Source: Rhodocyclaceae bacterium
Lineage (GTDB): Bacteria > Pseudomonadota > Gammaproteobacteria > Burkholderiales > Rhodocyclaceae
DNA length: 64,000 nucleotides
Reading direction: 5' to 3'
Assembly (NCBI GenBank): GCA_008080565.1
Contig: VIKE01000011.1
Location: 1 to 64,000, forward strand
Part shown: in pieces, positions 2,306-60,875 of the stretch
How positions within the stretch are numbered: position 1 is the stretch's first letter
Layout: the number at the start of each line of letters is the position of its first letter
The notes under the pieces: model-generated
What the model was told of the DNA's origin: nothing
What the model saw: the letters and a program-made list of their open reading frames with translations, nothing else
The model's database searches: none
Program-made: the position numbers and the translations under genes

Positions 2306-3985
2306 GTGATCACCCGCCGCCTGCCACTTCTTGTCCTGCTCACCATCGCCACGCCGCTGATGGCCGGCGAGCTGACTGTGCACGCGCCAAATGACATCAA
2401 CAGACTGCTCGCTCCCTGGTTGCCGGAAGAAGCCGGCAACCAGCGTCGGCTGCAGGGGCAGCTCAGCGAAATCCTCGCCACCGAGGGCTATTTTTCGCCG
2501 GAATTCAATTTCACCGAAAACGATGACGGCCTGACGCTCAACCTCGATCCCGGACCACGGACGACCATCGCCAGCGTCAATGTCACGGTCGACGGGAAAA
2601 TTGAGCCAAAAACGAAATCCGACCTCATCGCCAGCTGGGGCCTGCCGGTCGGCCAGCCATTCCGGCAAGCCGACTGGAACGAAGCCAAGCAGCAAATCCT
2701 GGCTGACCTGCTGGCCGTCGAACACGCCGACGCCAAACTGGTCGACAGCGAAGCCAGCATCGACGCCGAAACGCACCGCGCCGACCTGAGCGCTCATTAC
2801 GACGCCGGCCTGCGCTACCGTTTCGGCAACATTCGCGTCGAGGGCATGGAAAACTACCCGCCCGACCTCATCGCGCGCTACAACCGCGCCGTGCAGGCCG
2901 GCCAGCCCTACCGCGAAGACCGGCTCAACGCGCTGCAGGGCATGCTGCAATCGACCCCCTATTTTTCCTCAGTGCAGACCACGCTCGACCGCGAGGCGGC
3001 CGTGGTCAATGCGGACGGCACGGCGACGGCGCCCGTCCTCGTCCGCGTCCGCGAACGTTCGCCGCACCGCGTCTCGTTCGGCGCCGGCGCCAGTTCCAAC
3101 ACCGGCGCCCGGATCGAGGTGAATTACCACACCCCCAACCTGCTCCACCGCGGTTGGGCGCTCGATACCGGCCTGCGCCTCGAGCAGAAAAGACAGACCG
3201 CCTACAGCGACGTCTTTTTGCCGCCCGACGCGCGCAACCGCCGGCACAGCTTCGGCATCATGGCCGAAGCGGCCGACATCCAGGGCCTGAAAACCGAGCG
3301 CTACGCTTTCGGCGCGCAGACCGTCCAGCAACGCGGCATCGTCGAACAGCGCCTGTCGCTCAACTGGCAGGAAGAAAAGCGCGAAGCCAGCGGCGCCAGC
3401 CCGCAAACCGCCCGGGCGCTGGTCCCCAATGGCGTGTGGACCTGGCGCCACATCGACAACCTGCTCGACCCGCGTGACGGTTCCGTCGTCCAGGTGCAGA
3501 TCGGCGGCGGCGCCAAGGCCGCGCTCTCCGACCAGAACTTCGTCCGGCTGCATACCCGCGTCCAGCATTACATCCCGCTCGGCCGCGCCGACACGCTCAA
3601 TCTGCGCGGCGAAATCGGCTACACCTTTGCCGACTCGCGCCAAGGCATCCCGCAGGATTACCTGTTCCGCACCGGCGGCGCCGGCTCGGTGCGCGGCTAC
3701 GCCTACCAGAGCCTCGGCATCCGGGAAGGCAGCGCGATAGTCGGCGGCCGCTACCTGGCCATCGCCAGCGCCGAATTCACGCACTGGCTGAACGACAGTT
3801 GGGGCATCGCCACCTTCGTCGACGCCGGCGACGCGGTCGATAGCCTGCAGGACATCCGCCTCGCCGTCGGCGCCGGCCTCGGTGCCCGCTGGCGCAGCCC
3901 GGCCGGGCCAATCGGCGTCGATCTGGCCTACGGCGAACGCAACCAGGAAGTGCACCTGCACTTCTCGCTGGCCATTCCGTTCTAA
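2306..3985 (+). CDS. tamA: TamA, outer-membrane translocation and assembly module barrel (BamA/Omp85 family)
   Basis: 559 residues starting at GTG. A signal peptide (MITRRLPLLVLLTIATPLMA) is followed by POTRA-type domains (about 25-260) and a C-terminal 16-strand-type barrel. The barrel carries the Omp85 lid motif GGAGSVRGYAYQSLG and ends in an aromatic residue (SLAIPF). TamA sits in the outer membrane and works with TamB in inserting autotransporters and other envelope proteins. tamB begins 7 bp downstream, as in most Proteobacteria. A degenerate copy of the window-wide short repeat lies in frame at 2580-2620, encoding TVDGKIEPKTK inside the POTRA region. Confidence 0.93.
   Translation: MITRRLPLLVLLTIATPLMAGELTVHAPNDINRLLAPWLPEEAGNQRRLQGQLSEILATEGYFSPEFNFTENDDGLTLNLDPGPRTTIASVNVTVDGKIEPKTKSDLIASWGLPVGQPFRQADWNEAKQQILADLLAVEHADAKLVDSEASIDAETHRADLSAHYDAGLRYRFGNIRVEGMENYPPDLIARYNRAVQAGQPYREDRLNALQGMLQSTPYFSSVQTTLDREAAVVNADGTATAPVLVRVRERSPHRVSFGAGASSNTGARIEVNYHTPNLLHRGWALDTGLRLEQKRQTAYSDVFLPPDARNRRHSFGIMAEAADIQGLKTERYAFGAQTVQQRGIVEQRLSLNWQEEKREASGASPQTARALVPNGVWTWRHIDNLLDPRDGSVVQVQIGGGAKAALSDQNFVRLHTRVQHYIPLGRADTLNLRGEIGYTFADSRQGIPQDYLFRTGGAGSVRGYAYQSLGIREGSAIVGGRYLAIASAEFTHWLNDSWGIATFVDAGDAVDSLQDIRLAVGAGLGARWRSPAGPIGVDLAYGERNQEVHLHFSLAIPF
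2580..2620 (-). repeat. Interspersed repeat copy 1 (in tamA, degenerate)
   Basis: Reads CACGGTCGACGGGAAAA then GAGCCAAAAACGAAAT, matching the reverse orientation of the family core (CCACGGTCAACCGGAAAAAA, then GGCCAAAATTGAAA) with a few substitutions. It is in frame within the tamA POTRA region and read as TVDGKIEPKTK. Confidence 0.6.
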
Positions 3986-3992
3986 GCGTGAC

Positions 3993-6900
3993 ATGAAACG
4001 CCCCCTTACCCTTTTCGCCCTCCTCGCCAGCGCCGCCGTCATCGGCGGACTCGGCTGGCTGACGACCAGCGAAAGCGGCCTGCAAACCGCCATCGGCCTG
4101 GCCCAAAGCGCCACCGCCGGCCAGCTGCGAATCGAACAAGCCAGCGGCCGCCTGCTCGGCAACATCGACATCGGCCAACTGCGCTGGCAAGGCGCCAAGC
4201 AGCAAATCGAGGCGACGCAGATTCACCTCGACTGGTCGCCGTCAGCCCTGCTCCGCGGCACACTGGACATCGCCGAACTGAGCATCGCCACCCTGCACAT
4301 CGTCACCACCCCGAGCGACACGCCGACACCAGCGCCGATCGATCTGCAACTGCCTTTCACGGTCAACGCGAAAAAACTGGCAATTTTGAAATTGAGTGTC
4401 GGCGACGGCTTCACCGCCACCGACCTCGCCGCCAGCTTCAGCAGCGACGGCCGCCAGCACCAGCTTGCAGACGTCCATGCCCTGACTGGCGGCATCGCCA
4501 TCACCGGCCGCGCCAGCCTCGACGGCCTCGCCCCCCTGCCGCTCGCCGCCAGCGCCGAGATTTCCGGCCAGCTCGACGAGCGCCCGCTCACCTTGGCACT
4601 GACCGCCAACGGCCCGCTCGAACGCATCGCGCTGACCGCCGTCGCCACCCAAGGCGTCGCCGGCACGGCCGAGGTCGCGCTCACGCCCTTCGCCGACGCC
4701 GCTTTCGCCAGCGCCCGCCTCCTGCTTGAAGACATCGACCCGGCCACCTGGCAGCCCGGCGCGCCGCAAGCCAAACTCAGCATCACCGCCGACATCGCAC
4801 CGCAAGGCGACGGCATTGTCGGCAGCTTCGGCCTGACCAACCACCAACCCGGCCCCCTCGACCGCCAGCGCCTGCCGCTCGCCACGCTGGCCGGCACGGT
4901 CGACTGGCAGGGCAGCAGCGCCAAATTCGCCACCCTGCACGCCACCCTGCCCGGCGGCAGCGAACTCGACGGCAGCGGCGAATGGCGCGACGGCGCCCTT
5001 AAACTGGCGCTGACCGCCAGCCGGCTCGACGCTGCGCAACTCGTCTCGACGCTACGGTCAACCCGATTAAATGGCCAAATTTCAAGTCTTGTCGGCGCCG
5101 AGCGCCAGCAACTCAAGCTCAATCTGAAAGACGCCACCTTTACCCTGCTCGTCGAGGCCAGCCACGCCGACCAGCGCATCGACCTGCCGCAACTCCAACT
5201 CGCCGCCGGTGACGCCCGCCTGAGCGCCAAAGCCGAACTCAACCTAAAAACGCCGCGCGCCTTCACGGCCGAAGGCGAACTGCAACGTTTCGACCCAAGC
5301 CGCTTCGCCAAAGTACCAGCGGCGCAGATCAACGCCAATTTCAAGGCCGACGGCCGGCTCGACCCGCGTGCCGTGGTCGATGCCAGCTTCACGCTCAATG
5401 ACAGCCGGGTCGCCGGTCAGCCGCTGAACGGCCAGGGCAAACTCAACATCGATTGGCCGCGCATCCCCGGCATCGATATCCAGCTCGTTTCCGGCGCCAA
5501 TCACCTGACGGCCAAGGGCGCTTTCGGCCAGCCCGGCGACACCGTGGTCGTCGACCTCGACGCCCAGCAACTCGCTCCCTACGGCCTCGACGGCGGCATC
5601 ACCGGCCGGCTCGACCTGACCGGCTCGGCGCAGCAACCGAAAATCGCCGGCCAGTTGACCGCCGCCAAAATTGGCCAGCCCGGCGTCGCCCGCCTCACCG
5701 GCCTGAGCCTGAAGGCCAACGCGGCCGGGGAGGCCGGCTCGCCGCTGAGCCTCGATCTCGCCATCGCCGCCGTCGACACGCCGGACCAGCCCGGCCTGCT
5801 GCGCGCCATCCGCCTGCATGGCGAAGGCACCAACCAGGCGCACAGCCTGACGGCCAGCGCCGAGGTAGCCGGCAAGAATCTGCTGAACCTCGCCGTAGAC
5901 GGGGGTTTGAGCGCCGATTTCAGCCAGTGGCAAGGCCGCCTGCTCGAAGCAAAGCTGAACAGCGCCGACAAATCGCGCAATTTCCACCTCGCCGCCCCGG
6001 CCCCGATCAAGCTGGCCGGCGCTGGCTGGAGCATCGGCCCGGCCCAATTCATCGGCGATCCGCTCGATTGGCAAGCTACCTTGCAAGCGGGCGCCGACGC
6101 CAGACAACTGCACGCCACGCTGAGCGCCAGGGGCAGCCGTATCGGCCAGGTCGATGGCGAACTCAACGCCGCCATGCTCGGCGCCTGGTCGCTCAACCAG
6201 ACGGCACGCTGGCAGGGCCGGCTCAAGACCGACATCGCGGACCTCGGCTGGCTGGCCGAACTGATCGGCGACGGTTGGCAGAGCGAAGGACGCCTCAACG
6301 GCGAACTGCAATTGGCCGGCACACCCGCCGTGCCGCTGGCCAGCGGCCGCTTCCGCGGCGATAACTTGGCACTGCGCCTACCCGAACAAGGCCTCAACCT
6401 GGCCCGCGGCGAACTTGATGTCGATCTGCGCGACAACCTGCTGCACATCAATCGCCTCGGCTTCGATAGCCTGCTCCAGCCGATGCCGCGGGCGATCCGG
6501 CTCGATGCGCGCGACGACCTGAGCGGGCTGACGGCCAAGCCGGGGCGACTTGAAATTTCGGGCGAAATTCGGGTTGACCGTGGAAGTGCCGGCGAAAACG
6601 CTTTTCTCGACTTCAAACTCGACCGCCTCGGCGCTTTCCAGTTGCCCGACCAATGGGTCGCCGTTTCCGGCAACGGCCGGCTCAGCCTCAAAGATGGCAC
6701 GCTCGGCGCCGTCGGCAAAATGGCCGTCGACGCCGGTTACTGGCAACTCGCCCCGAGCGGCACGCCACGACTCTCCGACGACGTGGTGGTCAAACGCCCG
6801 GGTACGGAAAAGCCCGCGGCCAGCCTGCGTCCGAAACTCGAACTCGACGTCAGCACCGACCTCGGCCGCAATTTCCTCTTCAATGGCGCCGGGCTTTCGA

Positions 6901-10703: not shown

Positions 10704-13685
10704 TTAGTGCGGCTTGAGCCCCAATCGTGCCCGAACCAGCCCGATCAGGTCATCGACGTAGGTGAACACCACCGGAATGACCAGCAGGCTCAGGAAAGTC
10801 GAGGTAATCAGGCCACCGATGACGACAATCGCCATTGGCGCCCGGAAGCTCGGGTCGGTGCCGATGCCCAGCGCGATCGGCATCATGCCGGCGCCCATGG
10901 CGACGGTGGTCATGACGATCGGCCGGGCCCGCTTGCGATTCTTGGTGGCGATGCCCATGAGCATGATCAGGCCGATCATCGACGGCATGGAGAGCGCCGT
11001 GTGGGTGACGAACAGCGCCAGGAAGGCGCCCGGCACGGAGAGCACGAGGGCGGCGAGGATGGTCACCGGCTGGACGAAGTCTTTGAAGAGCAAAACCAGC
11101 ACGATGTAGATGCAGAGCACGCCGGTGGCCATGGCCAGCGCGAAACTGGCGAACAGTTCGCCCATCGCCTCGGCGTCGCCAACCGTCGTCTGGATGACGC
11201 CGGGCGGCAGGTTGGTCAGGCTGGGTTTGGCCAGGGCCTGGGCTTCCACCTCGCCAAGCGGCTGGCCGTTCAGTTCGATTTCAAAATTGATGTTGCGCAG
11301 GCGGTCGTAGCGGTCGATCTCGGCCGGGCCGCCGGCAATGCTGACTGTAGCGACATTGGCGAGCATGACCGGGCCGTGCTTGCCGGGTACGGTCAGCCGT
11401 GCGAGCAGGGCAAGGTCGGTGCGCGCCTCAGGCGGTAATTTGACGACGATGGGCACCTGACGCTGCGTCAGGTTGAGCTTGGCCAGGCCCTGGTCATAAT
11501 CGCCGGCTGTTGCAATACGCAGGGTGTCGGCGATGGCCGCCGAGGTCACGCCGAGGTCGGCCATGCGGGCGAAATCGGGGCGGATGACCAGTTCCGGGCG
11601 AACCAGGCTGGCCGTCGTCGTGATGCCGCCGATGCCGGGAATGGTGCGCAGGTCGCGCTCGACGAGACGGGCGTGTTCAGTGAGCAATGGGCCATTCTCG
11701 CTGGCCAGGACGAGGACGTATTTGGCGTTGCCGGAGGCCAGGCCGACCTTGATCTGGGCGCCGGGGATGACGCTGAGCGCCTCGCGCAACTGGTCTTCGA
11801 TGGCCTGCTTGCTGATGCCCGAACGCTCGTTGCGCGGTGTCAGGTTGATGGTCAGCGTTGATTTCCTCACCTCGGCAGCCCCCGAGGCAGCAAACGGATC
11901 GCTGCCGGCCTTGCCGCCGCCGACGGCGGTGTACACCAGCTTGACGTGCTCGTTGGCCTCGGCGATGTGGCGGGCCTGCTCGGCAATGGCGACAGACTCC
12001 TTGAGCGTCGCGCCGGGCGGCAGGGAGAGGTAGATTTGCGTTTGCGACACGTCGTCCGCAGGCACGAAGCCGGTCGGCAACAGCGGCACCAACATGAAGG
12101 AACCGACAAAGAAGAAGGCCGCACCGAGCATGGTCATGATCCGGTGCTTGAGACACCAGGTGGCCCAGCCTTCGTAATACTTCAACCAGCGCGGCGTCGG
12201 CTCGTCGTGCGTCACCGGACGCAGGATGTAGGCGGCCATCATCGGCGTCAGCATGCGGGCGACGACGAGCGAGAAGAAAACGGCGACGGCTGCGGTCCAC
12301 CCGAACTGGACGAAGAATTTGCCGGCCACGCCGCCCATGAAGGCGGTGGGCAGGAAGACGGCGATCAGGGTGAAGGTCGTGGCGATAACCGCCAGGCCGA
12401 TTTCGTCGGCTGCTTCCATGGCCGCCTGGTAGGGCGTCTTGCCCATGCGCAGGTGGCGCATGATGTTTTCGATTTCGACGATGGCGTCATCGACCAGAAT
12501 ACCGACGACCAGCGACATCGAGAGCAGGGTGACGACATTGAGCGTGAAGCCCATCAGGTACATCGCGGCGAAAGTCGGGATGGCCGACAACGGCAGCGCG
12601 GCGGCCGAAACAAAGGTGGCGCGGCCATCGCGCAGGAAAAGCCAGACGACGAGCACAGCGAGGATGGCGCCTTCGACAAGCAGCTTCATCGAGCCTTCGT
12701 AGTTTTCAATGACCGGATCGACGAAATTGAAGGCTTCGGTGATTTCGATATCGGGATGATCGGCTTTCAGCTTGTCGAGCACGACCTTGACGCTGTCAGC
12801 GACCTCGACTTCGCCAGCGCCCTTGCTCCGCGTGATCTCGAAGCCGACGACCGGCTTGCCGTTGAGCAGGGCGGCAGTGCGCTGTTCACCGACGGTATCG
12901 CTGATCGTCGCCACCTGATCGAGGCGGATGCGCCGGCCGTCGGTCAGCACGATGTCCATGCTGCCCAGCTCGTCGGCGCTCTGCACGGTGGCAATGGTGC
13001 GCACCGACTGCTCGATGCCGCCGACGTCAGCCCGGCCACCCGAGGCATCCTGCTGGATCTGCTTGAGCTGGCGCGAGATGTCTGCAGCGGTGACGTTGAG
13101 CGCCAGCATTTTTGCCGGATCAAGTTCGATGCGGATTTCGCGCGCCACGCCACCGACCCGCGACACGGCGCCGACGCCGCGCGCCGAGAGGATGGCCTTG
13201 CTGACGGTGTTATCGACGAACCACGACAGTGCCTCGTCGTCCATACGGCTCGACGCGACGGTATAGGTCAGGATCGGGGAGCCGGAGACGTTCATCTTGC
13301 TGATCACCGGATCGCGCAGATCGCCCGGCAAGTCGGAGCGGATGCGTGAAACGGCATCGCGCACGTCATCGACGGCTTCCTGCAACGGCTTTTCCAGGCG
13401 GAATTCGACGGTCACTGTCGCCGTGCCGTCCTGCACCTTGGTGTAGATGTGCTTGATGCCCTGCAGCGTCGCCACCGAATTCTCGATCTTGCGCGCCACC
13501 TCGGTTTCCATCTGGGCCGGCGCGGCGCCGGGCAGGCTGGCCGTAACGATCACGTTGGGCAATTCGATGTCCATGAACTGCTGGATCTTCATCGCCTTGA
13601 AGCCCATGATCCCGGCCAGCGTGAGGAGCAGGAAGAGCAGGATGGCCGGCGTCGGATTGCGGATCGACCACGACGAAACGTTCAT
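10704..13685 (-). CDS. RND efflux transporter permease (AcrB/MexB-like) lacking a segment near TM10-11
   Basis: 993 residues, against about 1020-1050 usual for the family. It begins with the cytoplasmic end and TM1 (NPTPAILLFLLLTLAGIMGF), has two large periplasmic porter/docking regions, and retains the proton-relay aspartates in TM4 (LVVGILVDDAIVEIENI). Near the C-terminus the sequence runs MGIATKNRKRARPIVMTT. In homologues as I know them, about 28 residues (a membrane segment and loop, starting KNSILLVEYA) separate KN from KRARP, so an in-frame deletion at about 10935-10950 is inferred, which would probably disable the pump. The membrane-fusion partner is encoded directly upstream, with a repeat copy in the 70-bp gap. 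Substrate unknown; no outer-membrane channel gene adjoins. Confidence 0.88.
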   Translation of the reverse strand: MNVSSWSIRNPTPAILLFLLLTLAGIMGFKAMKIQQFMDIELPNVIVTASLPGAAPAQMETEVARKIENSVATLQGIKHIYTKVQDGTATVTVEFRLEKPLQEAVDDVRDAVSRIRSDLPGDLRDPVISKMNVSGSPILTYTVASSRMDDEALSWFVDNTVSKAILSARGVGAVSRVGGVAREIRIELDPAKMLALNVTAADISRQLKQIQQDASGGRADVGGIEQSVRTIATVQSADELGSMDIVLTDGRRIRLDQVATISDTVGEQRTAALLNGKPVVGFEITRSKGAGEVEVADSVKVVLDKLKADHPDIEITEAFNFVDPVIENYEGSMKLLVEGAILAVLVVWLFLRDGRATFVSAAALPLSAIPTFAAMYLMGFTLNVVTLLSMSLVVGILVDDAIVEIENIMRHLRMGKTPYQAAMEAADEIGLAVIATTFTLIAVFLPTAFMGGVAGKFFVQFGWTAAVAVFFSLVVARMLTPMMAAYILRPVTHDEPTPRWLKYYEGWATWCLKHRIMTMLGAAFFFVGSFMLVPLLPTGFVPADDVSQTQIYLSLPPGATLKESVAIAEQARHIAEANEHVKLVYTAVGGGKAGSDPFAASGAAEVRKSTLTINLTPRNERSGISKQAIEDQLREALSVIPGAQIKVGLASGNAKYVLVLASENGPLLTEHARLVERDLRTIPGIGGITTTASLVRPELVIRPDFARMADLGVTSAAIADTLRIATAGDYDQGLAKLNLTQRQVPIVVKLPPEARTDLALLARLTVPGKHGPVMLANVATVSIAGGPAEIDRYDRLRNINFEIELNGQPLGEVEAQALAKPSLTNLPPGVIQTTVGDAEAMGELFASFALAMATGVLCIYIVLVLLFKDFVQPVTILAALVLSVPGAFLALFVTHTALSMPSMIGLIMLMGIATKNRKRARPIVMTTVAMGAGMMPIALGIGTDPSFRAPMAIVVIGGLITSTFLSLLVIPVVFTYVDDLIGLVRARLGLKPH

Positions 13686-13729: not shown

Positions 13730-13764
13730 TTCCACGGTCAACCGGAAAAAACGGCTCATTTTGC
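13730..13764 (-). repeat. Interspersed repeat copy 5 (between MFP and RND genes)
   Basis: Reads TTCCACGGTCAACCGGAAAA then AACGGCTCATTTTGC. The core is perfect in reverse orientation, placed a few bases after the stop codon of the membrane-fusion gene and about 45 bp before the RND start. Confidence 0.85.
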
Positions 13765-14889
13765 AACCCCGTCGACCACCTTGACGATGTCCCCATCGGC
13801 CAGGAAGCCGGCCCCCGTCGCCACCACGCGCGCCGTCGGTTCCAACCCGGAAACCACCTCGATGCGCTCGCCACCACGGCGGCCGAGCGCAACCTTGGCC
13901 TGCGCCACGCGATCCTCGCCCTCCATCCGGAAAACATAGGCAAAACCTTCGCGCAGGACGACGGCCGATTGCGGCAGCGTCAGCGCCGGACTTTCCGCCA
14001 GCGCGAATTCGCCGCGCGCGAACATGCCGGCCCGGACGGCCGAAGTCGCCGGCAGATCAACATAAACCAGCCCGTTGCGCGTTTGCGGATCAACGCTCGG
14101 CGACACCGTGCGCACCGTGCCCTTGACCGTTTCCCCGCCCGGCGCCGTGAGCGCCGCGACGACGCCGACCTTGATCTTGCCGAGATCGGCCGATGGCACT
14201 TCGGCCCGCCACTCGAGCCGGCCGCCGCGGATCAGGCGAAACAGCTCCTGCCCCGACTGGGTCAGCGAGCCGACCGTCGCACTGCGTGCCGAAATCACAC
14301 CATCGTCGGGCGCCACAACGCCGGTCTTGCTCATTTTCAGATCAGCCCCCCGCTGCCGGGCCCGCGCCGCGGCGAGGCGTGCCTGCGCCGTGTGCTGGGC
14401 CGTCTGGTACTGGGTGTTGAGCTGCGAGCTGTAGAAGCCCTTTTCCTTCAACTCCTTCGCCCGCTCGGCATTGCCTTTCGCCTCGGCGACGCTGGCTTCG
14501 AGTTCGGCCACCGAGGCCTGGGCCTCGGCCAGTTCGCTGGCCACGGTGTCGCTGGCGATGCGCGCCAGCACCTGCCCCTTTTTGACCGTATCGCCCACCT
14601 GGACGCGCACTTCGGTGATCCGGTAATTGGCGATTTCGGCGCCGATCACCGCTTCCTGCCAGGCGACGACATTGCCGTTGGCCGGCAGCACCAGCGGCCA
14701 CTCGAGTTTTTGCGGGGTGGTCAGGGTGACCGTCAGCGCCGGCCGGGCGGCGGCCGCCTTGGCTGTTTCGGCCGGTTTCGATTCATCCGAGCGCGATAAA
14801 AGGAAAGCGCCGACCACTGCCAGGGCGGCAATAGCCAGCGCAATGTACGTTTTTCGCCCGGCAAGCGGGCCCAATATATTGGATTTCAT
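13756..14889 (-). CDS. RND efflux periplasmic adaptor (membrane fusion protein, HlyD/MexA type)
   Basis: 377 residues. An N-terminal membrane anchor (TYIALAIAALAVVGAFLL) is followed by a lipoyl-like half-motif (ITEVRVQVGDTVKKGQVLARI), a helical hairpin (about 120-185) with heptad-like Ala/Glu/Lys, the second lipoyl half (VVAPDDGVISARSATVGSLTQ) and a beta-barrel and membrane-proximal domain to the C-terminus. It bridges the RND pump to an outer-membrane channel. It is the first gene of the pair with the RND permease on the same strand. No local regulator gene is visible, and the upstream gap to the CoA-transferase end is only about 77 bp. Confidence 0.9.
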   Translation of the reverse strand: MKSNILGPLAGRKTYIALAIAALAVVGAFLLSRSDESKPAETAKAAAARPALTVTLTTPQKLEWPLVLPANGNVVAWQEAVIGAEIANYRITEVRVQVGDTVKKGQVLARIASDTVASELAEAQASVAELEASVAEAKGNAERAKELKEKGFYSSQLNTQYQTAQHTAQARLAAARARQRGADLKMSKTGVVAPDDGVISARSATVGSLTQSGQELFRLIRGGRLEWRAEVPSADLGKIKVGVVAALTAPGGETVKGTVRTVSPSVDPQTRNGLVYVDLPATSAVRAGMFARGEFALAESPALTLPQSAVVLREGFAYVFRMEGEDRVAQAKVALGRRGGERIEVVSGLEPTARVVATGAGFLADGDIVKVVDGVAK

Positions 14890-14966
14890 GCAAAAACCTG
14901 TGTTGACCGCGGGAATCGTCGAATCATACCGCGGCCGATGTCACAGGCCTAATGACCCTTCGGTCA

Positions 14967-18453: not shown

Positions 18454-18477
18454 ACCATTCAACTCATTGACTATTAT

Positions 18478-18510
18478 GGAATTCGACGTTTTTTCCGGTT
18501 GACCGTGGCA
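18478..18510 (+). repeat. Interspersed repeat copy 6 (upstream of the sigma-54 promoter)
   Basis: Reads GGAATTCGACG then TTTTTTCCGGTTGACCGTGG. The core is perfect and the AT arm poor. It sits between the end of the sigma-54 activator gene and the -24 box, about 25-55 bp upstream of it. Confidence 0.8.
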
Positions 18511-18558: not shown

Positions 18559-19959
18559 TCAGGCCGCCTCGGCATCAACGCCCAGGCCGGCAATCTTTTC
18601 GTACAGCGCCGCCCGCGAAATACCGAGCAGCCGGGCGGCCTGAACCTTGTTCCCGGCACAGCTGCGCAAGGCGGCGAGGATCGCCTGGCGTTCGGCCTGG
18701 GCGACCACCTCGGCAATGCCGAGAACCCTGGCCACCGGCGGCACGAGCGATGCCTTGACCTGCGGCATGACCCGATCAAGATCGGCGCTTTCGAGCATGT
18801 CGCCATCGCTCATCAACAAGGCCCGTTCGAGCACATTGGCCAGTTCGCGCACATTGCCCGGCCAGTCGTGCTGGAGCAGACGATTGAGGCCGGACGTACT
18901 GATGCCGTGCAGGGGAATGCCTTGCAGGCGACAAATCTGTTCAATCAGGTAGTCGGCGAGCAGGCCCATGTCTTCGGGACGCTCGCGCAAAGGCGGCGTT
19001 TTCACGGTGATGACGTTGAGCCGATAATAAAGATCTGCGCGGAACTGGCCATCGGCGACCATTTGCTCGAGATCGCGACTGGTCGCCGCGATGATCCGCA
19101 CATCAACGGTCAGCAGCTTGTTCGAACCAACCGGCTCGAACTCCCGCTCCTGCAGGACGCGTAGCAATTTGGCCTGGAGCGCCAGCGACATGTCGCCGAT
19201 TTCGTCGAGGAACAAGGTGCCGCCATCAGCCAGCTTGAATTTGCCGTCGCGGCCGCGCTTGTCGGCGCCGGTATAGGCCCCGGCAGCGACACCGAAAAAC
19301 TCCGCTTCGAGCAGCGTTTCCGGCACGGCGGCAATGTTGACCGCAACAAACGGCCCGTTAACCCGCGGGCTGGCCGCATGAATGGCCTGGGCCAGCAGCT
19401 CCTTGCCCGTTCCCGTTTCGCCGAGAATGAGCACCGACGACGACGTTCGCGCTGCCCGTCGCGCCGCCTGCTTCAACTCGCTGCAACCGGTGCCAGCGCC
19501 GACAAAGCTCGAAAAGGTATATTTGGTCCGCCGGGCATCAGCCAGCTTGCGTTCGGCTTCGGCCAAATCCGCCCGTAGCCGCTGGTAACGCGACACCACC
19601 GGCGTCAGATGGCGCGGATCGTCGTACAGGATGAAGCCGACCGCCCCGACCACCACCCCGCCCTCATCGCGCAGCGGCAGGCGGGTGACAACGAAGGCCT
19701 CTTCGCCGAAATCCATGATGTCGAGCATGATCGGCCGGCCGGTGCTGATCACCTGACGCATCAGGCTGTTCGGGATCACTTCCTCGATCGGCCGGCCAAC
19801 CGTTGACGCCGGATTGCGGATGCCCAGACGGGCCGGATACTGATCATTCATCCAGACGACGTTGGCCTCGGCATCGACCACCACCGCCCCCTCGCACAAA
19901 TCGGCAAAATGCGAGAGCAGTGATTTCGATGCCAGCTGGCGCAGGTCGTCCGGAGTCAC
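18559..19959 (-). CDS. Sigma-54-dependent transcriptional activator (PAS, AAA+, Fis-type HTH)
   Basis: 466 residues. An N-terminal PAS domain (about 15-125, VVDAEANVVWMNDQYPARLG) senses a ligand or redox signal. The AAA+ domain carries Walker A GETGTGKE, the sigma-54 contact loop in the variant form GAYTGA, Walker B GGTLFLDEIGD and WPGNVRELANVLERA. A C-terminal Fis-like helix-turn-helix follows (NKVQAARLLGISRAALYEKI). GTG start, 2 bp after the stop of the CBS-domain gene. It is expected to drive the downstream sigma-54 promoter of the permease and CoA-transferase operon. Confidence 0.92.
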   Translation of the reverse strand: MTPDDLRQLASKSLLSHFADLCEGAVVVDAEANVVWMNDQYPARLGIRNPASTVGRPIEEVIPNSLMRQVISTGRPIMLDIMDFGEEAFVVTRLPLRDEGGVVVGAVGFILYDDPRHLTPVVSRYQRLRADLAEAERKLADARRTKYTFSSFVGAGTGCSELKQAARRAARTSSSVLILGETGTGKELLAQAIHAASPRVNGPFVAVNIAAVPETLLEAEFFGVAAGAYTGADKRGRDGKFKLADGGTLFLDEIGDMSLALQAKLLRVLQEREFEPVGSNKLLTVDVRIIAATSRDLEQMVADGQFRADLYYRLNVITVKTPPLRERPEDMGLLADYLIEQICRLQGIPLHGISTSGLNRLLQHDWPGNVRELANVLERALLMSDGDMLESADLDRVMPQVKASLVPPVARVLGIAEVVAQAERQAILAALRSCAGNKVQAARLLGISRAALYEKIAGLGVDAEAA

Positions 19960-27871: not shown

Positions 27872-27912
27872 GACATTTCAATTTTGGCCGTTTTTTCCGG
27901 TTGACCGTGGAA
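27872..27912 (+). repeat. Interspersed repeat copy 7 (best full-length copy, downstream of tsaC)
   Basis: Reads ATTTCAATTTTGGCCG then TTTTTTCCGGTTGACCGTGG, then AA. This is taken as the type copy. It lies 9 bp beyond the tsaC stop codon, between tsaC and tRNA-Ala. Confidence 0.9.
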
Positions 27913-38515: not shown

Positions 38516-40297
38516 ATGAGTCTCGTAGAAGTCAAAGTCCCGGATATCGGCGATTTCGCCGAAGTGCCGATCATCGACCTGTTCGTCAAGGTTGGCGACA
38601 GCATCAAGGTGGACGACGCGATCTGCACGCTGGAATCCGACAAGGCGACGATGGATGTGCCGTCGCCGGTCGCTGGCGTGGTCAAGGAAGTGCTCGTTCA
38701 GCTTGGCACAAAGGTGGGTGAAGGCGCGTTGTTGATCAAGGTTGAAAGCGGTGCGGCTTCCACGGTCAACCCGGAAAATGCGCCAAAAACGGAAACCCCG
38801 GCTGCGGCGCCAGCCGCCGCCCCGGTGGCCGCTCCGGTCGCCGGTAGCCATGCCGGCGGTGCCGACATCGAGTGCGAGATGCTCGTCCTCGGCGCCGGCC
38901 CCGGCGGTTACTCCGCCGCCTTCCGTTCAGCCGACCTCGGCATGAAGACGGTCATCGTCGAACGCTACGCCACCCTCGGCGGCGTCTGCCTCAACGTCGG
39001 CTGCATTCCGTCCAAGGCCCTGCTGCACGTCGCCGCGGTCATGGAAGAAGCCCTGCACGCAGCCGATCTCGGCGTCACCTTTGCCGCCCCGACGGTCGAT
39101 ATCGACAAGCTGCGTGCCCACAAGGACAAGGTCGTCGGCAAGCTGACCGGCGGTCTGGCCGGCATGGCCAAGGGCCGCAAGGTCGACATCGTGCGCGGTT
39201 TCGGCACTTTCCTCGACCCGCATCACATTGAGGTCGAAGTCACCGACGGCAGCGGTCAGGACAAGACCGGCAGCAAGAAGATCGTCAAGTTCCAGAAGTG
39301 CATCATCGCCGCCGGTTCGGCGGCCGTGCATCTGCCCTTCATCCCGAAGGACCCGCGCATTGTCGACTCGACCGGCGCGCTCGAACTGCGCTTCGTGCCG
39401 CAGAAGATGCTGGTCATCGGCGGCGGCATCATCGGTCTCGAAATGGCTACCGTCTATTCGACTCTCGGCGCCAAGGTTGATGTCGTTGAAATGCTCGACG
39501 CGCTGATGCAGGGCCCCGACCGCGATGCGGTGAAGGTCTGGGAAAAGCAGAACACGCATCGCTTCGACAAGATCATGCTGAAGACCAAAACGGTGGCCGT
39601 CGATGCCCGTGAAGATGGCCTCTACGTGACCTTCGAAGGCGAAGGCGTCTCGCCGGAGCCGGTCAAGTACGACATGATCCTGCAAGCCGCCGGCCGCTCG
39701 CCGAACGGCAAGAAGATCGGCGCCGAGAAAGCAGGCGTCGCGGTCACCGACCGTGGCTTCATCAACGTCGATGCCCAAATGCGCACCAACGTGCCGCACA
39801 TCTTCGCCATCGGCGACGTCGTCGGCAATCCGATGCTGGCTCACAAGGCCGTCCATGAAGCCCACGTCGCAGCCGAAGTCGCGGCCGGCCACAAGGCAGC
39901 CTTCGACGCCACAGTGATTCCCGGCGTTGCCTACACCCATCCGGAAGTGGCATGGGTCGGCTACACCGAGGACCAGGCCAAGAAGGAAGGCCGCAAGGTC
40001 GAAGCCGCCAAGTTCCCGTGGGCGGCCTCCGGTCGCGCCATCGCCAACGGGGCCGAGTACGGTTTCACCAAGCTGATCTTCGATGCCGAAACGCATCGCG
40101 TCATCGGCGGGGCGATTGTCGGCCCGAACGCCGGTGACATGATCGGCGAAGTCTGCCTGGCCATCGAAATGGGCTGCGACGCGGTCGATATCGGCAAAAC
40201 CATCCACCCGCACCCGACGCTCGGTGAAACGGTCGGCATGGCGGCCGAAGTGGCGCACGGCACCTGTACCGATGTGCCGGCACCGCGCAAGAAATAG
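38516..40297 (+). CDS. lpdA: Dihydrolipoamide dehydrogenase (PDH E3) with N-terminal lipoyl domain
   Basis: 593 residues. One lipoyl domain (1-80, ESDKATMDVPSP) is fused by a linker (about 81-118) to a complete flavoprotein E3. The E3 has FAD site VLGAGPGGYSAAF, redox disulfide GGVCLNVGCIPSKALLH, NAD site VIGGGIIGLEMATVYSTLG, and C-terminal base HPHPTLGETVGMAAE. Lipoyl-E3 fusions are known in betaproteobacteria. The linker contains an in-frame copy of the interspersed repeat (38758-38796, read STVNPENAPKTE). The 3' end (40243-40298) is duplicated about 2.3 kb downstream at 42534-42588. Confidence 0.97.
   Translation: MSLVEVKVPDIGDFAEVPIIDLFVKVGDSIKVDDAICTLESDKATMDVPSPVAGVVKEVLVQLGTKVGEGALLIKVESGAASTVNPENAPKTETPAAAPAAAPVAAPVAGSHAGGADIECEMLVLGAGPGGYSAAFRSADLGMKTVIVERYATLGGVCLNVGCIPSKALLHVAAVMEEALHAADLGVTFAAPTVDIDKLRAHKDKVVGKLTGGLAGMAKGRKVDIVRGFGTFLDPHHIEVEVTDGSGQDKTGSKKIVKFQKCIIAAGSAAVHLPFIPKDPRIVDSTGALELRFVPQKMLVIGGGIIGLEMATVYSTLGAKVDVVEMLDALMQGPDRDAVKVWEKQNTHRFDKIMLKTKTVAVDAREDGLYVTFEGEGVSPEPVKYDMILQAAGRSPNGKKIGAEKAGVAVTDRGFINVDAQMRTNVPHIFAIGDVVGNPMLAHKAVHEAHVAAEVAAGHKAAFDATVIPGVAYTHPEVAWVGYTEDQAKKEGRKVEAAKFPWAASGRAIANGAEYGFTKLIFDAETHRVIGGAIVGPNAGDMIGEVCLAIEMGCDAVDIGKTIHPHPTLGETVGMAAEVAHGTCTDVPAPRKK
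38758..38796 (-). repeat. Interspersed repeat copy 9 (in the lpdA linker)
   Basis: Reads TTCCACGGTCAACCCGGAAA then ATGCGCCAAAAACGGAAAC. Reverse orientation, with one extra C in the core. It encodes STVNPENAPKTE at the start of the flexible linker between the lipoyl and FAD domains. Confidence 0.78.
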
Positions 40298-40310: not shown

Positions 40311-40377
40311 TTGCGGTTTTGAACCGCAACGCCCCAACGAATCGGCCGAACCCCACATCAGTGGCGTTCGGCCGATT
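40311..40377 (+). terminator. Tandem hairpins terminating the PDH operon
   Basis: First hairpin TTGCGGTT-TTG-AACCGCAA (40311-40329). Second is a 12-bp perfect stem AATCGGCCGAAC / GTTCGGCCGATT (40340-40351 and 40366-40377). Both lie within 80 bp of the lpdA stop. A long U-tract is lacking, so termination by the second hairpin is probable rather than certain. The rest of the 342-bp gap to 40640 contains only a degenerate repeat copy. Confidence 0.6.
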
Positions 40378-40379
40378 TG

Positions 40380-40417
40380 CTACGGTCGACGACCCGGAAT
40401 GGCAAAAAACGGCCACC
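40380..40417 (-). repeat. Interspersed repeat copy 10 (degenerate)
   Basis: Reads CTACGGTCGACGACCCGGAA then TGGCAAAAAACGGCCACC. The ACGGTC, CCGGAA and AAAAAACGGCCA blocks match the reverse orientation, but two short insertions separate them. Intergenic, between the lpdA terminator and the GGDEF-EAL gene. Confidence 0.45.
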
Positions 40418-43143: not shown

Positions 43144-43165
43144 GGCTGAACCGGCCACAGCACCT

Positions 43166-43204
43166 GCCACGGTCAACCGGGAAAAAGGGCCAAAATTGAA
43201 ATGC
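43166..43204 (-). repeat. Interspersed repeat copy 11 (downstream of thioesterase)
   Basis: Reads GCCACGGTCAACCGGGAAAA then AGGGCCAAAATTGAAATGC. The copy is near perfect, in reverse orientation, between the thioesterase stop and a strong terminator. Confidence 0.88.
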
Positions 43205-46570: not shown

Positions 46571-46610
46571 TTCCACGGTCAACCGTAAAAAAAGGCCAAA
46601 AATGAAATGC
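46571..46610 (-). repeat. Interspersed repeat copy 12 (downstream of ppk2)
   Basis: Reads TTCCACGGTCAACCGTAAAA then AAAGGCCAAAAATGAAATGC. Near perfect, in reverse orientation, between the ppk2 stop codon and its terminator. Confidence 0.87.
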
Positions 46611-46628: not shown

Positions 46629-47753
46629 CTAAAGAATCGGTACGCCCTGCTGCTCGCCGCGCTCGTAAACCACGTTGGCGCGGCCGACGATGAGCGGATC
46701 GAGATTGCCGATACGGTCGGTATCCTTGTTGTTGTATGGCAGTTTGTGCAGCACGTAGCGCATGGCGTTCAGACGCGCCCGCTTCTTGCAGTTCGACTTG
46801 ATCACCGTCCATGGCGCATCGGCGGTATCGGTGTGGAAGAACATCGCCTCCTTGGCCTTGGTGTAGTCGCCCCACTTGTCGAGCGAAGCCATGTCGATCG
46901 GTGACAGTTTCCACTGCTTGAGCGGATGCACCTTGCGTTCGCCGAAACGGCGGCGCTGCTCGTCCTGACTGACCGAGAACCAGAATTTGATCAGATGCGT
47001 GCCGTTGCGCGCCAACATGCGCTCGAACTCCGGTGCCTGACGGACAAATTCGGAGTACTCCTGATCGCTACAAAAACCCATGACCCGCTCGACACCGGCC
47101 CGGTTGTACCACGAGCGGTCGAACATGACGATTTCGCCATTGGTCGGCAGATGCTGCACATAACGCTGGAAATACCATTGGCCGCGCTCCATGTCGCTCG
47201 GCTTTTCGAGCGCCACGACACGGGCGCCGCGCGGATTCAGATGCTCCATGAATCGCTTGATGGTGCCCCCCTTGCCCGCCGCATCGCGGCCCTCGAAGAG
47301 GATCACCACCTTCTGCCCGGTTTCCTTGACCCAGGCCTGCAGCTTCAGCAACTCGACCTGCAGGCGATACTTCTGCCGCTCGTAGTTCTTGCGCTGCATG
47401 AGGTTCTTGTACGGGTAGCCGCCGTCGCGCCAATCCTTGGCCAACTCGTCATCCGGGCTGGCCGGCAATTCCTCGACGACCACGCCCTGCTGCTTGAGCA
47501 GCCCGCGGAGCAAGGCAACCGACTCGTCGGCCGGCATCCCGGCGATAACATCGCGCATCGCCCCCATTTTTGAAGCTTGGGCACCGTCGACCGCAGCCCG
47601 CACGGTGAACCCCTCAATGCCCTGCTCGGTCAGCACCGGCGGCACATCCCCGCTGATCACCCGGCGCCGGCGAACGGCACGTGCGGCAGGCTTGGTTTCA
47701 ACAGGGGCGATCGTTTTCGGCGGCGTTACCGTCGTTTTTTTTCTGGTGACCAT
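46629..47753 (-). CDS. ppk2: Polyphosphate kinase 2 family protein
   Basis: 374 residues from ATG 47753 (GGAGAGAGAG upstream). A basic Lys/Arg/Pro-rich N-terminal tail of about 40 residues precedes a single P-loop PPK2 domain: Walker A FEGRDAAGKGGTIKRF, lid LEKPSDMERGQWYFQRYVQHLP, Walker B GEIVMFDRSWYNRAGVERVMGF and KQWKLSPIDMASLDKW. It uses polyphosphate to phosphorylate nucleoside mono- or diphosphates. With sixA upstream and phoX downstream this is a phosphate-themed neighbourhood, fitting polyphosphate-accumulating Rhodocyclales (inference). Confidence 0.94.
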   Translation of the reverse strand: MVTRKKTTVTPPKTIAPVETKPAARAVRRRRVISGDVPPVLTEQGIEGFTVRAAVDGAQASKMGAMRDVIAGMPADESVALLRGLLKQQGVVVEELPASPDDELAKDWRDGGYPYKNLMQRKNYERQKYRLQVELLKLQAWVKETGQKVVILFEGRDAAGKGGTIKRFMEHLNPRGARVVALEKPSDMERGQWYFQRYVQHLPTNGEIVMFDRSWYNRAGVERVMGFCSDQEYSEFVRQAPEFERMLARNGTHLIKFWFSVSQDEQRRRFGERKVHPLKQWKLSPIDMASLDKWGDYTKAKEAMFFHTDTADAPWTVIKSNCKKRARLNAMRYVLHKLPYNNKDTDRIGNLDPLIVGRANVVYERGEQQGVPIL

Positions 47754-52079: not shown

Positions 52080-52117
52080 TGCCACGGTCAACCGGAAAAA
52101 TCGCCCAAAATTGAAGA
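52080..52117 (-). repeat. Interspersed repeat copy 13 (downstream of actP)
   Basis: Reads TGCCACGGTCAACCGGAAAA then ATCGCCCAAAATTGAAGA. Near perfect, in reverse orientation, just beyond the actP terminator. Confidence 0.86.
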
Positions 52118-55852: not shown

Positions 55853-55862
55853 TTAATAGCTC

Positions 55863-55897
55863 CTGAAATTTGATCAATTTTCCGGTTGACCGTGGGA
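55863..55897 (+). repeat. Interspersed repeat copy 14 (between groES and groEL)
   Basis: Reads CTGAAATTTGATCAA then TTTTCCGGTTGACCGTGGGA. Forward orientation with a shortened T-tract. The next bases (TCAACCG at 55898-55904) can pair with CGGTTGA inside the repeat, so in the antisense-read groESL mRNA it forms a 7-bp hairpin just upstream of the groEL ribosome site. Confidence 0.78.
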
Positions 55898-58696: not shown

Positions 58697-60181
58697 ATGA
58701 CTCTGCCCCAGCCCAGCCCGGCGCCACACCCGACCGCCTGTCGCAAGCTGCGCCAAGCCTTTGGTTTACTCGCGCTGCTAACGGCGGCCGGGCTGGCCAG
58801 CGCCGACCTGCCGCCAACCGTGTTGCAGGCCCTGAAAGCAGCGCAGATTCCGGCCGCCAGCGTCGCCGTCGTCGTCCAGCCAGTCGACGCCGGCGCGCCG
58901 CTGGTTGCCCACAACGCCAGCCGCGCGATGAACCCGGCTTCGGTCATGAAGCTGGTCACCACCTACGCTGCCCTCGACCTGCTTGGCCCGGCCTACACGT
59001 GGAAAACCACGGCGTGGACCGAGACTTCCACGGTCGACGGGAGTTTGAGCGGAAATTTGTACATCCGCGGCAGCGGCGACCCGCGCTTCGCCATCGAACA
59101 TCTGACCGCCCTGCTTCGCCAGATTCAGGTCCGCGGCATCCGCCGGATCGACGGCGATATCGTCCTCGACCGCAGCGTTTTCAACATTCCGGCCATTGAC
59201 CCGGGCGCCTTCGACGACAAGCCGATGCGGCCCTACAACGTCGGGCCGGACGGTTTTCTGCTCAATTTCCGCGCCCTGCGCTTCACGCTGCAACCGGACA
59301 ACGGCAAGCCGCGCATCCTCATGGAAACGCCGAGCGAGGGCCTGCGCGTCGACAACCAGTTGCGTGCCAGCAACAACGAATGCGGCAGCAACTGGAAGGA
59401 CTTCATCAACGTTCGGCTGATTCCCGAAAACAACGGCAATCGGCTCGAATTCACCGGCAGCTACGCCGCGCTCTGTGGCGAAAAGCCGCTCAGCCTGTCG
59501 CCCCTGCCGGCCGAAGCCCAGACCAGCGGCCTGATCCGCGCCCTGTGGAAGGAACTCGGCGGCACCTTGAACGGCCAGGTCCGCGCCGGCAGCGTGCCGG
59601 TCGGCGCCAGGCTGCTCACCCAGCACGAATCGGCGCCGCTGGCCGACGCCGTGCGCGACATCAACAAGTTCAGCAACAACGTCATGGCCCGCCAGGTCTT
59701 CCTGACCATCGGCAACGATTCTGCGCCAGCCACCGCCGAACGCGCCCGCCAGCGCATCACCGACTGGCTGGCTGGCCGCAATCTGCGTTTTGGCGAACTG
59801 GTTCTCGACAACGGTTCCGGCCTGTCGCGCCTCGAGCGGATCAGCGCCGACAGCCTCAACCGACTGCTGCTCGACGCCTGGAAAAGCCCGGTCATGCCCG
59901 AATTCGTCTCCAGCATGCCGATTGTCGGCATCGACGGCACGATGAAAAAACGTCTCAACGGCTCCGACGCCACCGGCCGCGCCCACATCAAGACCGGCAC
60001 GCTCGATGGCGTCAAGACCGCCGCCGGCTATGCCCTCGACGGCCAGGGCCGGCGCCATGCCGTCACCTTCCTGATCAACCATCCGCGCGCCCAAGGCGGC
60101 AGCGCGGCCATCGACGCCCTGCTCGTCTGGGTCGCCCAACGGCGCATTGGCGAGAAAGTGCCAGTCCTTGAAAATGAGTGA
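58697..60181 (+). CDS. dacB: D-alanyl-D-alanine carboxypeptidase/endopeptidase (PBP4 family)
   Basis: 494 residues from ATG 58697. A signal peptide (FGLLALLTAAGLASA) leads into an S13 peptidase with catalytic Ser82-x-x-Lys85 (MNPASVMKLVTTYAALDLLG), the second motif SNN (INKFSNNVMARQ) and KTG (AHIKTGTLDGVKTAAGYALD). It is periplasmic and trims or cleaves peptidoglycan cross-links. The start follows a terminator with no clear ribosome site; ATG 58667 is in frame but inside the terminator. A degenerate repeat-like sequence is at 59024-59060. The stop overlaps the next gene by 8 bp. Confidence 0.94.
   Translation: MTLPQPSPAPHPTACRKLRQAFGLLALLTAAGLASADLPPTVLQALKAAQIPAASVAVVVQPVDAGAPLVAHNASRAMNPASVMKLVTTYAALDLLGPAYTWKTTAWTETSTVDGSLSGNLYIRGSGDPRFAIEHLTALLRQIQVRGIRRIDGDIVLDRSVFNIPAIDPGAFDDKPMRPYNVGPDGFLLNFRALRFTLQPDNGKPRILMETPSEGLRVDNQLRASNNECGSNWKDFINVRLIPENNGNRLEFTGSYAALCGEKPLSLSPLPAEAQTSGLIRALWKELGGTLNGQVRAGSVPVGARLLTQHESAPLADAVRDINKFSNNVMARQVFLTIGNDSAPATAERARQRITDWLAGRNLRFGELVLDNGSGLSRLERISADSLNRLLLDAWKSPVMPEFVSSMPIVGIDGTMKKRLNGSDATGRAHIKTGTLDGVKTAAGYALDGQGRRHAVTFLINHPRAQGGSAAIDALLVWVAQRRIGEKVPVLENE
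59024..59060 (-). repeat. Possible interspersed repeat copy 15 (in dacB, degenerate)
   Basis: Reads TTCCACGGTCGACGGGAGTT then TGAGCGGAAATTTGTAC. The first 16 bases match well (as in the tamA copy, GGTCGACGGGA) and the rest poorly. The encoded STVDGSLSGNLYIRG fits normal PBP4 sequence (DGxLxGxLYIRG), so chance similarity is possible. Confidence 0.35.
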
Positions 60182-60875
60182 GCGCCCACCTTTTCCGGGC
60201 GAGGCGCTGGCCGAGGCTGGCCTCAACCGGCAATTCGTCTTCGATCTGAACGAGCTACCCGAGGCGACGCGCAAGACGCTGGGCGACACCACCGGCTACC
60301 GCCAGCTCATCCTGCTCGGCCACGCTGGCGGACGGCTTTGGGAATGCGTGCAGGCCAGCGGCATAGCCAGCCAACATCCGATCGACGACTACACCGTGTG
60401 CACCGTTGAAGCGTGGCTGGTCGAACATCTGCCCGGCCGGGCTTACCGCATCGTTTATCCGGGCCAGCAGCCGGTCGGTCTGCAGGCCCTCGGCAAGCTG
60501 GCCGGCTGGCACCACACTTCGCCCTTCATGATCGGCATCGACGCCGAGTGGGGTAGCTGGTACGCCTACCGGGCGGCCGTGCTGATCGATTTTCAATTTT
60601 CGGCCTTTTTCCCGGTTGACCGTGGGAACCCGTGCCTCGACTGCCGGTCGACGCCTTGCATCACGGCCTGCCCGGCCGACGCGCTGGCCGGCCGCCAGTT
60701 CAACCTGCAAGCCTGCAGCGGCTACCGCCTGCAGACAGAATCACCGTGCGCCGAAGGCTGCCTGGCCCGCCAGGCCTGCCCGGTCGGCGCCGAACATCGC
60801 TACGAGGCGACCCAGATCGCCCACAGTTACCGCCGGTCGCTGGCCATGCTCCGGCAACACCTCGACAAACCCTGA
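60174..60875 (+). CDS. 4Fe-4S-type cysteine-rich protein (epoxyqueuosine reductase-like C-terminal part), with repeat-derived insert
   Basis: 233 residues from ATG 60174, overlapping dacB. The N-terminal half is a soluble domain (LILLGHAGGRLWECVQASG). The C-terminal part has a ferredoxin-like cysteine pattern CLDCRSTPCITACPADAL and later CAEGCLARQACPVGAEH, reminiscent of QueG-like and other Fe-S oxidoreductases; the exact function is unknown. Just before the first cysteine, FQFSAFFPVDRGN is encoded by a full interspersed repeat copy (60590-60628), so repeat DNA has become part of this protein. Confidence 0.7.
   Translation: MSERPPFPGEALAEAGLNRQFVFDLNELPEATRKTLGDTTGYRQLILLGHAGGRLWECVQASGIASQHPIDDYTVCTVEAWLVEHLPGRAYRIVYPGQQPVGLQALGKLAGWHHTSPFMIGIDAEWGSWYAYRAAVLIDFQFSAFFPVDRGNPCLDCRSTPCITACPADALAGRQFNLQACSGYRLQTESPCAEGCLARQACPVGAEHRYEATQIAHSYRRSLAMLRQHLDKP
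60590..60628 (+). repeat. Interspersed repeat copy 16 (in the Fe-S protein gene)
   Basis: Reads TTTTCAATTTTCGGCC then TTTTTCCCGGTTGACCGTGG, then GAA. Full-length forward copy translated in frame as FQFSAFFPVDRG. Confidence 0.86.

Follow-up and report, generated by a model that had tools for sequence, protein, structure and literature searches.

Which process has spread one short sequence many times over a bacterial chromosome, within genes as well as between them? This question is raised by a 64,000-nucleotide stretch of an assembly from a Rhodocyclaceae bacterium (GCA_008080565.1, contig VIKE01000011.1, positions 1 to 64,000; hereafter the window), in which an initial annotation listed 16 copies of an interspersed repeat. 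Genomic comparisons indicate that this repeat is probably the DNA uptake signal sequence of Azonexus/Dechloromonas relatives (Azonexaceae, Rhodocyclales). This reading is based on the abundance and layout of the repeat, its presence on both strands, its even spacing, and the lack of element-sized gaps in coding DNA, as well as on lineage dialects, in-register differences between these dialects, nearly site-free inserts, and the presence of comEC and dprA. The uptake system would represent a third family, which by sequence is neither that of Neisseriaceae nor that of Pasteurellaceae and which most likely works alike. Binding by a receptor, biased uptake, and uptake as the cause of the repeat are what we infer from these patterns.

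Consensus and Abundance of the Repeat

The consensus of the repeat, ATTTCAATTTTGGCC-N-TTTTTTCCGGTTGACCGTGG-N-A, is 38 bp long, gap-free, and sharply bounded. It was derived from exact copies of a 13-mer, 39 from the window's own assembly (G000; 5.2 Mb in 152 contigs) and 123 from loci in named records, the latter fetched with an 18-mer, which biases this set towards one C and four bases of the near T tract. A rigid core is accompanied on one side by two AT tracts about 11 bp apart, in which A and T are interchangeable. The arm that the initial annotation placed before the core holds these tracts, and the near-palindrome that it described within the core (CGGTTGACCG) is real. Outside the 38 bp, sequence preferences are weak (e.g., C at +17).

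In the window, TTTTCCGGTTGACCGTGG has 13 matches at three or fewer mismatches, compared with 0.10 expected from 100 shuffles. A 38-bp profile of the window's dialect (the own profile), which was refined on the related genome G002 and on the window itself, finds 15 sites of 26–65 bits (6 on the plus and 9 on the minus strand), and none in one dinucleotide shuffle of the window or in the reversed window. A second profile represents the dialect of another relative, G030, and finds 23 window sites at 13 bits or more, compared with two in the reversed window; both profiles were trained partly on sequences that were later scored. Fifteen of the 16 positions listed initially match the own profile, in both orientations as had been stated, and the remaining one (40380) matches the G030 profile, which also adds up to seven weaker sites.

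The scan of the whole assembly likewise exceeds chance: the 13-mer CGGTTGACCGTGG occurs 311 times in G000 (150 plus, 161 minus), compared with once for the reversed pattern. The initial estimate of more than a thousand copies per genome stands as an extrapolation only, 97 sites per 400 kb of G002 corresponding to about 1,000 per 4.2 Mb.

Site density is uneven among the G000 contigs (0.4–2.5 per 10 kb in the stretches examined), and contigs of lower GC content are also poorer in sites. In addition, GTYGACCGCRNCA, a pattern of the sister dialects discussed below, has 176 copies in G000. The density variation and the sister-dialect copies may be remnants of an old dialect, foreign DNA, or the result of admixture; the contamination estimate of this assembly is 6.13%, and many of the genomes compared are fragmented and incomplete.

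Density, Spacing, and Strand

In 400 kb of G002, the own profile at 18 bits or more finds 97 sites, compared with none in controls. Of these, 63 lie fully in open frames, 24 are fully intergenic, and 10 straddle a boundary, and the non-coding share is about 9% according to a simple open reading frame caller. Many sites are near stop codons, and those in genes are most commonly read in the frame that gives mostly (A/S)TVN-type peptides. Among the 12-bp cores, perfect copies (52) outnumber those with one mismatch (42); the corresponding counts in a shuffle are 0 and 2. The spacing is more even than in simulations, with a coefficient of variation (CV) of 0.69 compared with 0.98 ± 0.10, and none of the 2000 simulations was as even. 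In G030, the density is 272 sites per 400 kb and the CV is 0.84 compared with 1.00 ± 0.06 (p 0.001), and the sites are divided 133/139 between the strands under a constant sign of GC skew in this one 400-kb stretch. Replichore polarity, a candidate raised by strand runs in the match listings, was rejected, as the counts are about equal and no polarity was found in the G030 sequence.

Two further observations concern these stretches. At G002:C1:359169-359244, two sites lie head to head in a gap between genes with their cores touching, forming a perfect inverted repeat (inner 22 + 22 bp); similarly close cores, by coordinates only, are found at G000:C4:10410/10427 and G000:C59:8489/8507. Separately, TTTCACGTGAAA, which we take to be a parS-like site, is counted eight times over both strands (a palindrome at four places) per 400-kb stretch (L223-L242, L203-L222).

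Taxonomic Spread and Dialects

Among the 101 stretches listed with the exact 18-mer, records named Azonexaceae, Azonexus, or Dechloromonas account for 51 and a single Rhodocyclaceae record for 13, followed by records of Betaproteobacteria (19), Proteobacteria (9), Gammaproteobacteria (8), and Pseudomonas extremorientalis (1). Azonexus belongs to Azonexaceae within Rhodocyclales, the order to which the initial annotation had pointed, and the matches fit this placement. A 16-mer also matched 12 viral contigs, once in each.

The abundance of the motif differs greatly among relatives. Of the 60 genomes covered by the relatives search, four have many exact copies of the 13-mer (G000, 311; G002, 384; G003, 74; G012, 69), and the other 56 have 0–12 copies. 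A census of AT tract plus core (W5-N15-GTYGACCG) in 76 genomes of the genus separates 40 motif-rich genomes with 126–992 sites from 36 motif-poor ones with 4–97, the controls giving 1–16 and the strands being about equal. Differences in presence and absence, which the initial annotation had proposed to look for, are thus found in genome counts, and they recur at orthologous loci (see below). In a tree of 11 genomes based on one 2-kb stretch, in which 4 of the 8 inner branches are weakly supported, motif-poor genomes adjoin motif-rich ones (G018 next to G011, with support of 100/100). This pattern suggests that the motif was lost repeatedly.

Motif-rich genomes may also use another version of the sequence. 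G030 has only five copies of the exact 13-mer, and its most over-represented 10-mers include GTCGACCGCA and GTCGACCGCG. Its logo has the same geometry, with a core of GTYGACCGCR-NCA and a far AT tract at equal distance; two AT tracts are found in the dialect of G000 and G002, whereas in G030 the near tract is weak and the far tract alone is strong. Based on 40-kb samples, the leading 10-mers are GTCGACCGCA in G008 and G003, GTCGACCGTG in G011, GTCGACCGCG in G015 and G032, and GTTGACCGTG in G012, and several samples have no clear leading 10-mer. Among the genus genomes drawn besides G000, GTYGACCGCRNCA has 322 copies in G146 and 26 in G253 (control 6). Outside the genus, its highest count is 35 (control 17), with a mild but steady excess in eight genomes of genus g13 (14–29 compared with 1–8). 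The G030 profile finds 0–1 sites in 20 kb from each of five genomes of the same family.

Inserts in comEC and Other Competence Genes

ComEC is above the cut-off in 68 of the 76 genomes, DprA in 24 of 25, and ComEA in 22 of 25. In several genomes, comEC is present as two far-apart pieces on one contig, split by 2–64 kb, and the breaks recur at three positions of the model (near residues 145, 161–166, and 590). Such split genes are found at G002:C33:109618-143310 and in G341:C22, G357:C1, G005:C9, and G372:C1, as well as, by profile search only, in G335:C1, G361:C1, G371:C153, and G029:C11. In three motif-rich genomes, the inserts have one site in 125 kb, compared with 33 in 114 kb of flanking DNA. 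The insert of G002 has none in 33.7 kb (11 in 46.3 kb of flank, by profile), and with the pattern AT4-N15-GTYGACCG, those of G341 and G357 have none in 48.5 kb (11 in 31.5 kb of flank) and one in 43.3 kb (11 in 36.7 kb), respectively. The bare 8-mer GTYGACCG follows the same trend (5 in the insert compared with 19 in the flank in G341; 6 compared with 17 in G357). In the motif-poor G372 and G005, the AT4 pattern is absent from both insert and flank. GC content is lower inside the insert in all five genomes. The inserts of the three motif-rich genomes are foreign-looking and nearly site-free. That of G002 encodes polymerase-, primase-, and UmuC-like proteins (identified by eye), suggesting a prophage or an integrative element. 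Repeated takeover of the uptake channel by mobile elements would be consistent with a conflict between such elements and transformation.

These inserts also bear on the rival explanation that survives best, a chromosome-maintenance or recombination motif that is read inside the cell, such as a Chi-like or FtsK-orienting polar sequence (KOPS)-like motif or a nucleoid-protein site. Chi and KOPS, like repetitive extragenic palindromic (REP) sequences and miniature inverted-repeat transposable elements (MITEs), are short, very abundant, and interspersed. An intracellular motif would agree with the abundance and even spacing in coding and intergenic DNA, and a dimeric protein could bind the near-palindromic core. 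However, the three inserts reside in the same cytoplasm as the rest of the chromosome and are nearly site-free, and 36 of the 76 genomes of one genus have only 4–97 sites. Unlike Chi and KOPS sites, the repeat shows no replichore polarity in the 400 kb of G030 (133 plus and 139 minus under a constant GC-skew sign, in one stretch of one genome), and it is longer than either and carries AT tracts. We consider this explanation improbable.

Substitution or Insertion at Orthologous Loci

A total of 159 copies were examined, and 43 of these have orthologous DNA in another genome within the stretches examined, providing 71 comparisons in which the orthologous segments were scored with their flanks and with both profiles. 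The orthologue carries the own dialect in 18 comparisons, the relative's dialect in 22, and neither in 31. Among the 25 coding comparisons with neither dialect, 11 are gap-free, 14 have a net length change of zero, and none has a net gap of 30 bp or more; an 18-bp net gap occurs in two, both at the window site 38758. Given these gap-free orthologues that lack a site, coding sites arise without insertion, and they do so in stretches that are more variable than average (identity inside the 38 bp is 67% in all 57 coding comparisons, compared with 82% in controls). The remaining comparisons with neither dialect comprise five intergenic cases and one at an edge.

Where the other dialect is present in coding DNA, 13 of the 19 comparisons are gap-free. 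For G030, the segment has equal length in 15 of 19 comparisons, and 12 of these 15 match GTYGACCGCR in register at 9 or more of 10 positions, 8 of them exactly; restriction to fully gap-free cases gives 10 of 12. The background rate of such a match is 0.00056. The place of the site is kept while the dialect differs.

That the repeat, or at least its intergenic copies, is a dispersed non-autonomous mobile element of the REP or MITE type is considered very improbable. Such an element would explain the high copy number, the lineage-specific abundance, the one close inverted pair, and the net gaps of 21–41 bp in all five intergenic comparisons without a site. However, the repeat differs from REP sequences and MITEs in that element-sized gaps are absent from coding DNA (0 of 25 siteless comparisons with a net gap of at least 30 bp) and in its longer motif with AT tracts; moreover, the other dialect is at the same place in 22 of 71 comparisons, and beyond the 38 bp only weak sequence preferences exist. 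Among the origins that the initial annotation had left open, a mobile element is therefore disfavoured in coding DNA, and a DNA-binding site stands as the likeliest class, in this case one that would be read during DNA uptake. Least probable of all is a transcriptional signal, either a regulator site or a terminator, for although 24 of the 97 G002 copies are fully intergenic in a stretch that is only about 9% non-coding and many copies are close to stop codons, 63 copies lie fully in open frames in both orientations, and in the sole close pair found over 400 kb, the two copies face each other head to head and the stem is followed by A, whereas an intrinsic terminator would have T there.

Comparison With Known Uptake Sequences

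The literature describes sequence-specific uptake of DNA for two bacterial families (PMC7811141, PMC1939737), and its origin and purpose have accordingly been argued from two cases. The traits reported for the uptake signal sequence (USS) and the DNA uptake sequence (DUS) include an origin by point mutation, a strong consensus, dialects, and the lack of a chromosomal orientation bias (PMC1626085, PMC1939737, PMC3630211, PMC7371117, PMC7811141). One of these papers cites a significantly even spacing found by others and argues that it is less even than compaction sites would need.

The USS of Pasteurellaceae (AAGTGCGGT / ACAAGCGGT) has two AT-rich motifs 3' of its core, as given in PMC1626085. 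The repeat resembles it in a copy number of the same order, occurrence on both strands, dialects, AT tracts 3' of the core, and the lack of insertion gaps in coding DNA. Its layout, with a rigid core and AT tracts on one side, is like that of the Haemophilus USS. In addition, GCGGTC is present in the dialects of G030, G008, G003, G015, and G032 when these are given the orientation of the USS, and it is also part of the commonest 10-mer of Actinobacillus pleuropneumoniae, ACAAGCGGTC (PMC1626085). However, the core differs overall, being GCGGTCRAC in the sister dialects and ACGGTCAACC in that of the window, which reads ACGGT rather than GCGGT. The USS core ANNNGCGGT itself is the core of neither the window's dialect nor that of G030, which has GCGGT but prefers T at the position of the leading A. 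The distance from GCGGT to the first AT tract is larger by about 6 bp on an approximate reckoning, and Azonexaceae belong to another class of Proteobacteria and have high-GC genomes. It is conceivable, but rather unlikely, that the Azonexaceae system converges on the Pasteurellaceae USS or shares deep ancestry with it, with a GCGGTC core, AT tracts, and related minor-pilin receptors, and that the genus records a dialect switch in which the same sites were rewritten between GCGGTCRAC and ACGGTCAACC. The likeness in GCGGTC was noticed post hoc and may be a coincidence.

The DUS of Neisseriaceae is GCCGTCTGAA with its dialects (PMC3630211, PMC1626085), and its density is low in genomic islands (PMC7371117). 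Like the DUS, the repeat has lineage dialects, is missing from some members of the family, occurs in Betaproteobacteria, and is sparse in foreign-looking DNA. However, the cores are unrelated and the DUS lacks flanking AT motifs; the CTG that is common to all DUS dialects is found neither in GTYGACCG nor in its complement. In the open-licence literature of PubMed Central (PMC), searches that combined uptake-sequence terms with Rhodocyclales, Rhodocyclaceae, Dechloromonas, or Betaproteobacteria found no report, and earlier reports elsewhere are possible. Within the broader uptake-sequence literature, none of the matches listed contained "uptake signal sequence", and those listed for the bare core strings are unrelated by title.

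Proposed Mechanism and Implications

If the repeat is an uptake signal, a DNA receptor on the cell surface, probably one of the minor pilins of a type IV pilus, would bind the core (CCACGGTCAACCGG, in one orientation) and the two AT tracts, and the competence machinery would then pull in the marked DNA. Recombination of imported self-DNA could spread the sites by molecular drive. Sites would arise mostly through point mutation of pre-existing DNA, be held near the consensus by the uptake bias, and accumulate at places where the sequence is unconstrained. A shift in receptor preference would lead to old sites being changed to a new dialect one base at a time, and a loss of uptake specificity would let sites decay. 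ComP is a minor pilin, and a further study reportedly also names it as the DUS receptor. The guess of a minor-pilin receptor in Azonexaceae follows the description of ComP as the DUS receptor (PMC3630211) and, as presented in PMC12616744, the prediction of the minor pilin ComN as the USS receptor and the binding of DNA by other minor pilins.

A third, independent case, if true, would make it a comparative problem how uptake specificity arises, turns over, and is lost, for which the dialects, the low counts in nearly half of the 76 genus genomes, and the dialect differences at the same place would be of help. A self-tag would let environmental bacteria import DNA of their own kind preferentially. 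The uptake signal interpretation predicts natural competence in environmental bacteria of the Azonexaceae group, and it suggests a transformation tag for them as well as a marker of foreign DNA.

Several observations weigh against an uptake signal. In the G002 stretch, the strands are uneven (38 plus, 59 minus), and the in-gene sites are mostly in the opposite sense (20 same, 43 opposite). Gaps are more frequent at siteless coding loci of the motif, of which 11 of 25 are gap-free, than at random coding loci (324 of 358 gap-free). The five intergenic comparisons with neither dialect (four copies) all have net gaps, of 21, 22, 24, 30, and 41 bp, compared with 82 of 92 random intergenic loci that are gap-free and none of 92 with a gap of 15 bp or more, which leaves room for insertion or local turnover at intergenic copies. 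Among the 25 genomes searched, ComEA is below the cut-off in the motif-rich G000, G003, and G015, and DprA was not found in the motif-rich G019. The link between few sites and a broken comEC is weak: by hand scoring, 7 of the 40 motif-rich genomes and 14 of the 36 motif-poor ones have a broken gene (Fisher p 0.044, uncorrected for kinship), with no significance in genomes at least 90% complete (p 0.21) or for one-contig interruptions only (p 0.12), and comEC is intact in several motif-poor genomes. The domain PF16732 (ComP_DUS) was rejected as a receptor marker, as it is above the cut-off in 53 of 60 genomes with no visible link to the motif. Finally, the open-licence PMC literature on natural transformation and competence names Dechloromonas once in each of the two papers found.

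PF16732 is matched in 20 of 25 genera and is widespread in the order. Its matches in G000, G002, and G030 adjoin other pilin-like genes (by eye). One cluster of minor-pilin-like genes, in G000:C85 (L322, 3343-10963), includes a PF16732 pilin and may hold receptor candidates.

Sites in the Window

Scores in the window refer to the own profile unless the G030 profile is named. The highest-scoring site (27875..27912, plus strand, 64.7 bits) lies 10 bp or less after the stop codon of the Sua5 gene. Near the start of the window, one site is in the Omp85/POTRA (TamA-like) gene (2581..2618, minus, 49.6 bits) and three are in the TamB gene (4355..4392, minus, 48.9 bits; 5050..5087, minus, 40.0 bits; 6548..6585, plus, 42.6 bits). 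Another, between the HlyD-type and AcrB-type genes, covers the last 12 bp of the former (13730..13767, minus, 46.6 bits), and one is about 50 bp downstream of a sigma-54 activator gene (18473..18510, plus, 41.3 bits). The site at 33694..33731 (plus, 53.0 bits) lies where a short open frame, identified by hand, begins, and its orthologue in G005 is gap-free and lacks the own-dialect motif. Further sites are at 43165..43202 (minus, 61.5 bits), at 46571..46608 (minus, 57.4 bits), beside a hairpin that by eye resembles a terminator (52080..52117, minus, 57.5 bits), directly upstream of the cpn60 (GroEL) gene (55860..55897, plus, 34.5 bits), and at 60590..60627 (plus, 55.0 bits). The lowest of the 15 own-profile scores belongs to a site in the peptidase S13 gene (59026..59063, minus, 26.4 bits).

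The site at 40377..40411 (minus), with the core GTCGACCGTA, fits the relative's dialect, as the G030 profile gives it 26.6 bits and the own profile less than 8 bits. With the G030 profile, additional weaker sites are found at 14881..14915 (plus, core GTTGACCGCG, 22.0 bits), 19315..19349 (plus, core GTTGACCGCA, 23.1 bits), and 47565..47599 (plus, core GTCGACCGCA, 19.9 bits). Four weak ones may be chance matches to this profile: 12287..12321 (minus, core GTGGACCGCA, 16.4 bits), 33203..33237 (minus, core GTACACCGCG, 15.5 bits), 59144..59178 (plus, core CTCGACCGCA, 15.8 bits), and 5368..5402 (minus, core ATCGACCACG, 13.7 bits).

The last own-profile site (38758..38795, minus, 50.9 bits) is in an E3-type gene, where it falls in the linker that joins the lipoyl domain to the oxidoreductase domain, and lies in an indel-prone stretch. 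In the dehydrogenase-complex genes of this region (36843-38765), three diverged 276-nt repeats are present, which are probably lipoyl domains.

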